Shown: one piece after another, positions 18,777-22,593 of the stretch | How positions within the stretch are numbered: the first letter of the stretch is position 1 | How the letters are laid out: each line of letters opens with the position of its first letter | Assembly (NCBI GenBank): GCA_021797915.1 | Contig: JAJZYT010000004.1 | Span: 45,076 to 109,075 of the forward strand | Source of the DNA: Thermoplasmata archaeon | GTDB taxonomy: Archaea > Thermoplasmatota > Thermoplasmata > Thermoplasmatales > GCA-001856825 | Length of the DNA stretch: 64,000 bases | Direction: 5' to 3' | Made by a program: the position numbers and the translations under genes | Notes under the pieces: generated by a model | Told to the model about the DNA's origin: nothing | Seen by the model: only the letters and a program-made list of their open reading frames with translations | Database searches by the model: none

Positions 18777-19064
18777 TCAGAGGTATTTAAGAATATCCCG
18801 CCCCTTCATTCCTTCCTTTATTCCCACGTCTCTCGCTTTAGTACTTACTCTCATTACCTCTTTGTTTAGAAGGTCATCAAAGGTGTTCACACCTGAAATG
18901 GACGCAGCGATAGCTCCTATCTTGTCTGCCGCTTCCATGTTGAGAATGCCACACATCAAGAATCCTCGTTTTCCATTTATCAGAACTATCGGTGCTGGTT
19001 TTGTCTCTATCTTCACTCCAGTGTATACCTCTCCATTTTCTGATATATTTTCAATTTGTATCAT
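18777..19064 (-). CDS. DUF1805 family protein
   Basis: KPAPIVLINGKRGFLMCGILNMEAADKIGAIAASISGV. Confidence 0.8.
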   Translation of the reverse strand: MIQIENISENGEVYTGVKIETKPAPIVLINGKRGFLMCGILNMEAADKIGAIAASISGVNTFDDLLNKEVMRVSTKARDVGIKEGMKGRDILKYL

Positions 19065-21033
19065 AATCCTCCATACTCCTCTGGTGTATTATAGGTTGAT
19101 GTCTAGAGGGATATGAAATGCTCTCCCAAGCCATTTCAAGCTTCCTGAGATAGTAATTCTTGTCGTATCTGTTCTCCAGGTTTCCTATATCTACCGAGCC
19201 CCTATTTTCATCTATGACAAACATTGATACATTGTCTCCTGGTCCGACATCCTTTGCCTTTTCTATCGCCATTTTCCTTATGCCATTAACTTTGTACTGC
19301 TCGGGTCTGCGAGTTGCCATTATAGATAATTTCAGGTCGGAATCTTCCACCCTCCCGTTGACTATTCTGTCCTTGTAAGAATCGTATATTCTCCTGATTT
19401 CATTGTAATGTCCTGGGAAGTCTACAATTCTTGATACCTTGGAGTAAACTTTCAGAATGTCTTCCTGCATCTTCTTGCATATGTTTGGAAAATCCGTTCT
19501 CCGAAGCTCTATTCCCCTGACCTTGAATTTTCCACTGTCCATAAGACCAAAGTATCTGTTGAGGGCACCACTTCCATCTTTCGCTGGAAGGAATACTATC
19601 CACTTATAGAAACCCTCGAGGGAGATATTGAGCCTGCTCATTTCTTCTATCTTATCCATCACTCTGTTGATATCCCCAGTACCCCGGAGCCATAGAGAAT
19701 CAACGATCCCGTGTATTGTCCCGAACCCTTCATCTTCTGCAATCTTCACGCTCTCAGTCAGTATCCTTCTACCGAGACAGGTTATTGACTCGTGGACCTC
19801 TATCCTGCCGAACTTTGCATTTTTGTATCCCGTATAGCCGAATGATGTCAGCAGCAACCACTTCAGCACAGCGTCCCTTCTCCTGTACCGCTCGTCCGAG
19901 TTCTTCCTTGCCTTGTAATACAGTCTAAGCTCCAGAAGGTCCGACAGGAATTCTGAGAGCGTACCTCTCTTATCCATACAGATATCGTAACCCAGGTCTT
20001 CTATCCTCCATTTATCTTTGCAATTCACGTTTATGGTCTCGGGTGAGAGGTTGTATTTCACTATTATTGACGGGTACATTGAACTGAAATCTATTTCAAA
20101 CACTCCCTCATATACGCCGGGCACCGGTTGAAGGTAGAGCCCACCCCTATCGGAGCTGATGAACGTGTCTAGGTCTTTTATCATCTCATGATCTTCCTTG
20201 TAGAGAGGTATCATTATTCCCTTCTCGAGTGATTTTCTCACCTCATAGGATGATACGGCAGTTCCCGGGGTGATCCTGGCAGAATGGAAGAGCGGTAGAG
20301 AGGTAATCTTAGATATGGTAGCTAGGCCTTCCAGTCCCCCCTCACTGAATATGAAGGACGTATCTCTGTCTATGTGCGGGATTCCGTAAATAATGAATCC
20401 ACTGGCTCTGTGGTTGATCCTTCCATAAGAGGTGAAGGTCCTTTCCCTACTCCTAGAAGTTCTAGCAGAATAACCATGAACCTTGGCAGCCGTGAAGAAT
20501 TGAGGAAAATATCTATCTCCCCCCTCAGAAATTATCAGGTTTGCATCTGTCATGTTCGAAAAGAAGTAATCCAGGGACGAGGGAATGTTTGTGAACAGCT
20601 GACCATCAATCTCAACCTCTTCCAAGCCATCTATGAATTTTATATCCAGAGTGTTGAGATTAGGTATGTCGAAATCCATCCTCCTATCATCATTGAAGAA
20701 GTGAAGATCGTTTTTGACCATGAATGACTGGACGATGTTTATGTCTGCATTGTAGATCTTGTAATCCCTGAAATTTCCTATCTTCTCTATTGCGAGAATT
20801 AGATCATTCACTCTGTTTGGAGGCAGAGTTAAGCTTACAACTTTTTTGCTCGAGAAAATGTCCCGTCGTTCGTCTAATTTCCACGTTATCCATGGTACTA
20901 GGTCTATTTCGTCGGTGATCTTTTCCAGACGATCTCCTGCAACGTAAATGGTGTGTTCATAGTTCCATTTCTTTATTTTCTTGTTCTCGTCAATGGTGAA
21001 AAGAGAATTTCCACCCCATGCATCTACTATCAT
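19051..21033 (-). CDS. Variant B-family DNA polymerase (PolB2-like)
   Basis: Motif A FEIDFSSMYPSII intact; motif B KWLLLTSFGYTGY (N to T); motif C HGIVDSLW instead of YGDTDS; degenerate exonuclease motifs; 660 aa. Confidence 0.85.
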   Translation of the reverse strand: MIVDAWGGNSLFTIDENKKIKKWNYEHTIYVAGDRLEKITDEIDLVPWITWKLDERRDIFSSKKVVSLTLPPNRVNDLILAIEKIGNFRDYKIYNADINIVQSFMVKNDLHFFNDDRRMDFDIPNLNTLDIKFIDGLEEVEIDGQLFTNIPSSLDYFFSNMTDANLIISEGGDRYFPQFFTAAKVHGYSARTSRSRERTFTSYGRINHRASGFIIYGIPHIDRDTSFIFSEGGLEGLATISKITSLPLFHSARITPGTAVSSYEVRKSLEKGIMIPLYKEDHEMIKDLDTFISSDRGGLYLQPVPGVYEGVFEIDFSSMYPSIIVKYNLSPETINVNCKDKWRIEDLGYDICMDKRGTLSEFLSDLLELRLYYKARKNSDERYRRRDAVLKWLLLTSFGYTGYKNAKFGRIEVHESITCLGRRILTESVKIAEDEGFGTIHGIVDSLWLRGTGDINRVMDKIEEMSRLNISLEGFYKWIVFLPAKDGSGALNRYFGLMDSGKFKVRGIELRRTDFPNICKKMQEDILKVYSKVSRIVDFPGHYNEIRRIYDSYKDRIVNGRVEDSDLKLSIMATRRPEQYKVNGIRKMAIEKAKDVGPGDNVSMFVIDENRGSVDIGNLENRYDKNYYLRKLEMAWESISYPSRHQPIIHQRSMEDYDTN

Positions 21034-21221
21034 TTCATTTCTTTCTTCATTTCTAATAGGGCAAAAATGAGAAACGTGAAATATGGGTCAAGGCTGGTTA
21101 TAGAAGCCTCAGGAATGTGAAGTTTTATCTTTTTGATGAAGTCTTCGACTATCTCCCTATCTGCACTCTTCATCAACCTCTCCGCTTTCCTTATCTCTTC
21201 CGTTATGCTCTCTATTTCCAT
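21030..21221 (-). CDS. 63-aa helical protein between RecA-like and PolB genes
   Basis: MEIESITEEIRKAERLMKSADREIVEDFIKKIKLHIPEASITSLDPYFTFLIFALLEMKKEMK; overlaps both neighbours (10 nt upstream, 4 nt downstream). Confidence 0.65.
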   Translation of the reverse strand: MEIESITEEIRKAERLMKSADREIVEDFIKKIKLHIPEASITSLDPYFTFLIFALLEMKKEMK

Positions 21222-21682
21222 TCTAAGGCTAGGGGTGTTTCTTCCCATTTCTTTACTACCTCTAGTATTTTCCTGTGGAAAACGTGATCCAACCAATATG
21301 GTCTGAATTCCTCGTCTCCTACTAAATAGAGAATGTTCGGCGTTCCAGTCCTTCGCGATATCCCTTCTAGGGAGTTTGATATGTTGAACATCACGTCTTC
21401 TTTCCATTCCTTTAACTCAGACAACCTTACGACTATGAAAATTGAGAAATCGTCATAGTAAAAATCCTCTACAATGGTCTTCTGGAACTGATACACGTTG
21501 AGAATTCTCTGTATGTACAGTTGGTTTCCTAATTTTCTTTTTAAATAATGGGCGTCAACAAAGACGCCGTCTCCGAGAAGTAACAAAGTCTTCCCGTAAC
21601 TATTGACGAAGTCTTCCAATAATATTGAGTTGAATTCCTCCATTTCCATAAGATATGAATGCCTTGGATTTGCTCGGAACAT
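21212..21682 (-). CDS. Degenerate RecA/Rad55-like ATPase homolog, no Walker A
   Basis: NQLYIQRILNVYQFQKTIVED resembles the RecA-family segment after the nucleotide-binding strands; P-loop not identifiable. Confidence 0.55.
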   Translation of the reverse strand: MFRANPRHSYLMEMEEFNSILLEDFVNSYGKTLLLLGDGVFVDAHYLKRKLGNQLYIQRILNVYQFQKTIVEDFYYDDFSIFIVVRLSELKEWKEDVMFNISNSLEGISRRTGTPNILYLVGDEEFRPYWLDHVFHRKILEVVKKWEETPLALEWK

Positions 21683-21777
21683 GACTAAAAATCAGTCTGA
21701 CTATATTTGAACTTTATAGACCATTGTAAAAAATGAAAAAATTGAAAAAATGAATTTAGTCTCTCTTAAACTACCAA

Positions 21778-22593
21778 TCAGCCCTTATAGAAAATCATCT
21801 TTAAATGATCCAAGTCGTACACCACAGTGAACCTCTTTAGGAAATCATTTCCCAGCAACCCATCATAAATAATGTCCTGAAACACGACCCTGGGGCTCTC
21901 TTGGAAAATACTTGACGCGTAGCCAATTTCGAGCTTACCCTTTATCTCAGAAGAGTATCTCTTATAACTATACGAAGTTTCATCTGTGCCGGTGAAGACC
22001 TTGACGTTGGGATCTTCTGGAGAAACACCGAGTCTGGACATGAACTTTGAATTCAAGATAAGCACATCTGATCCTGTATCTACCTCCAGTTTCACGATAT
22101 CACCGTTCGGCAGGGTAGCGTCAATGAAGATGGTGATAGTGGGCCCATTATATTCAATATCAACAGGTACGACTGCCCCTTCACCGGTACCTTCCCATTT
22201 AACCGGTTCTTCAGAAACGAGAATCAAGGAATGAGTGTAATCAAATGTCAAGACTTTGTTTTGGAAGTAATTTACGGCAAGGATTCCTTTGATCTTACTG
22301 AATGCGGGAGGAAGTCCACCTAGTTCGTATATTCCTACTTCCAAGTCCTTTCTTACCAGTCCTCCGACTTCAATTTCTGGAAATTGTGCCAGAGGAATTT
22401 TCAACTGTTGTCCAGACATCCTCCGGCCCGAGAATTCCCCTATCGGTTCTAGTCCCATTTCGTCAGCAAAACTCTTGAGAATCACCGTTAGTCCAATACC
22501 CGTGTCAAGTAGGAAATTGAAGTCTTCACCTTCCAGCTTAACAGGAATTTTCATCAGGTGACCTCCTATGTATGAAAAGGGAATCTGTTCCAT
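21778..22593 (-). CDS. Retropepsin-like aspartyl protease with two DTG motifs
   Basis: FLLDTGIGLTVI and LEVDTGSDVLIL in one 271-aa chain; no signal peptide. Confidence 0.85.
   Translation of the reverse strand: MEQIPFSYIGGHLMKIPVKLEGEDFNFLLDTGIGLTVILKSFADEMGLEPIGEFSGRRMSGQQLKIPLAQFPEIEVGGLVRKDLEVGIYELGGLPPAFSKIKGILAVNYFQNKVLTFDYTHSLILVSEEPVKWEGTGEGAVVPVDIEYNGPTITIFIDATLPNGDIVKLEVDTGSDVLILNSKFMSRLGVSPEDPNVKVFTGTDETSYSYKRYSSEIKGKLEIGYASSIFQESPRVVFQDIIYDGLLGNDFLKRFTVVYDLDHLKMIFYKG

Follow-up and report, generated by a model that had tools for sequence, protein, structure and literature searches.

Four genes on the minus strand of a 64,000-nt stretch of DNA (hereafter, the window) overlap head to tail from 21682 down to 18777 and encode, in this order, iRadA, PPB2, PolB2 and a DUF1805 protein. 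We consider it very probable that this locus is the PolB2 mutasome operon of an archaeon in the 'I-plasma' group of Thermoplasmatales, and that it works by the mechanism described below. The first-pass annotation of the sequence had proposed a candidate archaeal translesion mutasome here, which was essentially right, except that the candidate is not a new one: the iRadA-PPB2-PolB2 set has already been published, with the same gene order, as the PolB2 mutasome (Makarova 2014, PMC4104785; Feng 2020/2022; Timinskas 2025, PMC11791011). The reports mentioned in that annotation, of PolB2 genes near inactivated RecA-like genes, do exist, PolB2 being linked to an inactivated RadA and arCOG07300 (PMC4104785). 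The locus is an ordinary member of this known, recent and little-tested system, and what is new here is the corrected start of PPB2, the apparent setting of PolB2 as sole translesion polymerase, the clamp-like motif on PolB2 and the conserved promoter element. The features of the locus, in positions of the window, are as follows.

21729-21753, minus strand: candidate operator, a tandem element TCATTTTTTCAATTTTTTCATTTTT made of three CAWTTWT units (spacing 8 and 9 nt)
21713-21718, minus strand: TATA box (TATAAA) following closely on the element, aligned across the family
21212-21682, minus strand: iRadA, 156 aa, RecA fold without Walker A (AlphaFold, Foldseek, profile chain, synteny)
21030-21248, minus strand: PPB2 (arCOG07300-type), 72 aa, corrected start (arm conservation, helices, translation)
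21234-21248, minus strand: PPB2 N-terminal arm MGRNT, within the iRadA overlap, the motif published as the MGRT arm (PMC11791011)
19051-21033, minus strand: PolB2, 660 aa, B-family DNA polymerase (Pfam, NCBIfam, alignment A1)
20146-20151, minus strand: PolB2 D(K/R) motif, D295-R296 (alignment A1)
20065-20091, minus strand: PolB2 motif A DFSSMYPSI, intact (D315, invariant in A1)
19699-19713, minus strand: PolB2 motif C HGIVD, H441-D445 (H441 and D445 invariant in A1)
19063-19083, minus strand: PIP-box-like motif QRSMEDY near the PolB2 C-terminus, conserved in family relatives
18777-19064, minus strand: DUF1805 protein, 95 aa, 14-nt overlap with the PolB2 stop (PF08827, 3.5e-22)

The three minus-strand reading frames and both overlaps reported earlier were recovered (156 aa at 21212-21682, a 63-aa reading at 21030-21221 and 660 aa at 19051-21033). 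iRadA, PPB2 and PolB2 are encoded on the same strand and in the same order in 29 of 29 related genome loci, and in an independent public scan of 80 loci each of the 78 that could be scored has PPB2 as the gene directly upstream of PolB2, the contigs of the other two beginning inside PolB2. The arrangement is therefore not due to chance. As the scan loci include Archaeoglobi, Methanoregula and Methanomassiliicoccales, the gene set reaches well beyond the species, which the first-pass annotation had named as a check. Given its short iRadA and altered polymerase motifs, the cluster might be taken for a decaying or chance assembly without function; synteny and selection have already refuted this reading, to which we assign almost no probability: Thermoplasmata, Methanomicrobia and Archaeoglobi all have the genes in this order, and dN is 0.05-0.14 for iRadA, PPB2 and PolB2 against synonymous sites near or at saturation. 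In another Thermoplasmata genome, iRadA and PPB2 form a single open reading frame (L067:4261-4920), a type of fusion known from the 2025 paper. Upstream of the operon, the window encodes on the minus strand (21778-22593) an archaeal single-chain aspartic protease with two retropepsin-like halves and two DTG motifs, which appears to be broken in a 97% identical relative (L004).

Of 13 family relatives, 12 likewise have the fourth gene overlapping the stop of PolB2, by 14-17 nt, and the gene's product has a solved homologue (1qw2/TA1206, 4.6e-19). DUF1805 was not found beside PolB2 outside the family; it is a lineage-specific fourth gene of the operon, and as a fourth overlapping gene it sets the window apart from the published PolB2 mutasome.

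Searches of the 156-aa protein sequence against Pfam, NCBIfam and PDB returned no match. Its AlphaFold model (pLDDT 83.9, pTM 0.81), when searched with Foldseek, matches UvsX, RecA, Rad51, KaiC and Rad51 paralogues (XRCC3/RAD51C) with E-values of 3e-5 to 5e-4 and a probability of 1.00, bearing out the RecA fold that had been suggested for it. A direct profile comparison between the iRadAs of the window's clade and RadA gave no match, therefore we relied on the fold and on intermediate families for this link. The longer iRadA equivalents that other euryarchaea encode at this place in the operon score above the Pfam Rad51 cut-off, and profile comparison connects them both to the iRadAs of the window's clade (95.6%, E 1e-8) and to RadA (95.1%, E 3e-8). 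On the structural model and this chain of profiles, we identify the 156-aa protein as iRadA. As claimed earlier, no Walker A motif was found in it: its sole 'GKT' (SYGKTLLLLG) is not conserved, and in the model it comes before a strand rather than after one. The lack of ATPase residues and of the N-terminal helical domain is shared with the published iRadAs, whereas the reduction to 156 aa is not. At the end of one contig of a further genome (L141, G011:C22:231-255), we noticed a second iRadA start that is nearly identical to that of the window's genus, besides the genome's own divergent copy, which is probably cross-contamination of the metagenome bin.

This fold, which is like that of the Rad51 paralogues, might suggest that the locus is a recombination-mediator module that assists RadA where forks stall and does little translesion synthesis, and both RadA and RadB, each with its Walker A intact, are encoded elsewhere in the same genome. 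We consider such a role quite improbable, as the module is strictly linked to a polymerase whose metal ligands are conserved, and in the published models PolB2 sits on iRadA and scores with RadA are poor (PMC11791011).

The small gene exists and overlaps PolB2 as had been reported, but its start was placed too far downstream. An in-frame ATG at 21248, 27 nt before the one at 21221 and inside iRadA, gives a protein of 72 aa beginning MGRNTPSLRM, and this start is conserved in 29 of 29 aligned PPB2 homologues. With it, the gene overlaps iRadA by 37 nt (not 10) and PolB2 by 4 nt. Met1, Gly2 and Arg3 are invariant and Arg9 is near-invariant (at least 90%) in the 29 sequences, and the bases encoding the conserved C-terminal KWEE tail of iRadA also encode the MGRN arm of PPB2. 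The model of the protein consists of three long helices (pLDDT 86), a three-helix fold like that of the published PPB2; in a fold search against PDB it gave no significant match, and the published resemblance to sigma factors was not reproduced. Judged by its conserved arm and predicted helices, the 72-aa protein is PPB2, and the corrected start, which is a new point, restores the MGRNT arm that defines PPB2.

Within PolB2, only the polymerase domain was found: Pfam DNA_pol_B (PF00136) matches at 3.7e-22 over residues 294-629 only, and no Pfam match to an exonuclease domain was obtained. The protein also scores 526.9 bits against the NCBIfam model for archaeal type B polymerases (NF004416), whose cut-off is 516. 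The altered polymerase motifs noted in the first-pass annotation were borne out, motif C having lost its first catalytic Asp while keeping the second (D445), which gives the HxxxD form described as the signature of PolB2 (PMC8764526). A further mark of PolB2 is the D(K/R) motif (PMC11791011), whose D295 is invariant in alignment A1, with K or R next to it in 21 of 23 sequences; motif C follows it after about 149 residues, as it does in Sulfolobus islandicus. Four genomes of another family of the order (G017, G021, G024 and G046; L117-L119 and L121) encode a short extra B-family polymerase of about 590 aa, which we tried as PolB2 and rejected because its DTD motif is intact and the iRadA and PPB2 neighbours are absent.

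The loss of the first Asp of motif C and of the exonuclease domain would also fit a catalytically dead PolB2, in a cassette with a structural or regulatory part in replication, for example at origins, as was proposed in 2008 and 2014. We regard this as improbable, though somewhat less so than the recombination-mediator role: D315 of motif A and D445 of motif C are invariant, the active Sulfolobus Dpo2 carries the same changes (PMC8764526), and Orc1/Cdc6 is absent among the neighbours that we examined. PolB2/Dpo2 of Sulfolobus, the only PolB2 for which a damage phenotype is known, is a damage-induced extender that is solely responsible for targeted mutagenesis (PMC7390963, PMC8764526). The window's protein belongs to the same polymerase subfamily, with the same motif changes, as Dpo2 of S. 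islandicus, a damage-inducible extender of mismatches and lesions (PMC7390963, PMC8764526).

A clamp-like Q..[ILM]..Y motif is found at the C-terminus of PolB2 in 13 of 13 family relatives, and none is found in iRadA of the same 13, while in an Archaeoglobi and a Methanomicrobiales relative iRadA ends in QTTLEVF or QTTLEAF. In the published mutasome, some members only have a clamp motif, which is on PolB2 or on iRadA and rarely on both; in the window it is putative and on PolB2 only. In the family, the C-terminus of PolB2 probably anchors the complex to PCNA.

The locus thus shares with the PolB2 mutasome its gene order, the MGR arm of PPB2, the inactivated RadA fold, HxxxD, D(K/R) and the one-sided clamp motif. 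Since this is the anatomy of the Sulfolobus and other published systems, we infer the same mechanism, including the complex, the PCNA contact and the damage induction in the window's organism. PolB2 would most likely be a non-proofreading enzyme that extends primer ends beyond lesions in the DNA. As in the modelled PolB2-iRadA-(PPB2)3 complex (PMC11791011), iRadA, with its RadA fold and lost ATPase site, would dock on PolB2, and the trimeric, helical PPB2 would insert one N-terminal MGR arm between the two, near the DNA, with the whole probably held at PCNA by the PolB2 C-terminus. Transcription would probably be controlled by the tandem CAWTTWT element, which immediately precedes the TATA box, and induction by damage would follow by analogy with Sulfolobus.

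No Y-family polymerase was found in the 15 genomes of the family, the window's included, while the same search finds one above the cut-off in eight other genomes of the order. As the family genomes are 52-93% complete, this absence is strong but not absolute. PolB2 may therefore be the family's only translesion polymerase, which, with the clamp-like motif on PolB2, differs from the published mutasome; Sulfolobus has, besides Dpo2, the Y-family Dpo4 and an Orc1-2/ANTTTC response, neither of which was found for the window's family or promoter. The known but barely tested archaeal mutasome is thereby extended to a lineage in which PolB2 seems to be the sole translesion polymerase, and in this setting a polB2 deletion would be a direct test of whether PolB2 alone carries induced mutagenesis.

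The earlier comparison with bacterial ImuA-ImuB-DnaE2 holds as an analogy of function, although the comparison made in the literature is with Pol V (UmuD'2C-RecA). Both bacterial systems combine a specialised polymerase with a RecA-fold partner and a small accessory protein, but their polymerases are of the Y or C families, their small partners are unrelated and they are under LexA control. We rejected membership in either, the cassette polymerase being of the B family and no Y-family polymerase having been found in the genome; the resemblance is one of analogy.

Family members share no related DNA upstream of the operon apart from TCAWTTTTTCAWTTTTTTCAWTTWT, which immediately precedes the TATA box. 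This element precedes the operon in 14 of 14 family loci (the window and L033-L045), and each of the 15 family genomes has at least one match to it, the reversed control giving none. The window's copy has zero mismatches, and no match arose in 100 shuffles. Outside the family, 32 of 42 Thermoplasmata-type loci have a two-unit version, CAYTTNNNCAYTTT, upstream of iRadA, at a distance from its start that is mostly 59-62 nt, and none of 142 other intergenic gene starts of the same loci has it; several of the remaining ten loci have one-base variants, as judged by eye. The enrichment of the two-unit element over all 51 loci has p = 1e-23, a value that overstates independence because the loci are related. 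At the protein level these loci share only 35-40% identity with the window, and their intergenic DNA is otherwise diverged. The element is real and associated with the operon, and it probably controls operon transcription, its response to damage being conjectured by analogy with Sulfolobus. The ANTTTC element, which Orc1-2 binds in Sulfolobus (PMC9738581), does not fit as a description of the window's element and was rejected; the operon has tandem CAWTTWT in its place. In the open-access literature we found no description of the tandem element, nor of any damage-response element for archaea outside Sulfolobales.

Within the window's own genus, the triple repeat also occurs about 75 nt before a gene for a 75-aa protein (MKEGNLDKEYSTGRRDQFDLDL...; L232, G000:C27:1376-1600), and does so in all nine genomes, the window's included, that have a close homologue of this protein (84-100% identity; L229-L237). 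The protein has a weak, sub-threshold match to the UVR motif, and its gene is likely to be a second member of the regulon. A broad repair regulon was tested on the repair gene nreA and is not supported, since nreA generally lacks the element: there was one hit (G055), at chance level or lineage-specific, and none in the other loci read. We tentatively propose a dedicated damage-response switch of Thermoplasmatales, which we rate as possible but somewhat short of an even chance, in which a putative regulator on tandem CAWTTWT upstream of the TATA box would control the PolB2 mutasome, as the only translesion polymerase of the window's family, together with a very small regulon including the 75-aa protein. 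The promoter element is the part most worth following, as its conservation offers a handle on how mutagenic repair is switched on in archaea outside Sulfolobales.

A few further sites of the element precede small open reading frames. In three genomes it stands before IS605 OrfB/TnpB-like genes (L264, L269 and L153), the first of which has a Cas12f1-like TNB domain.
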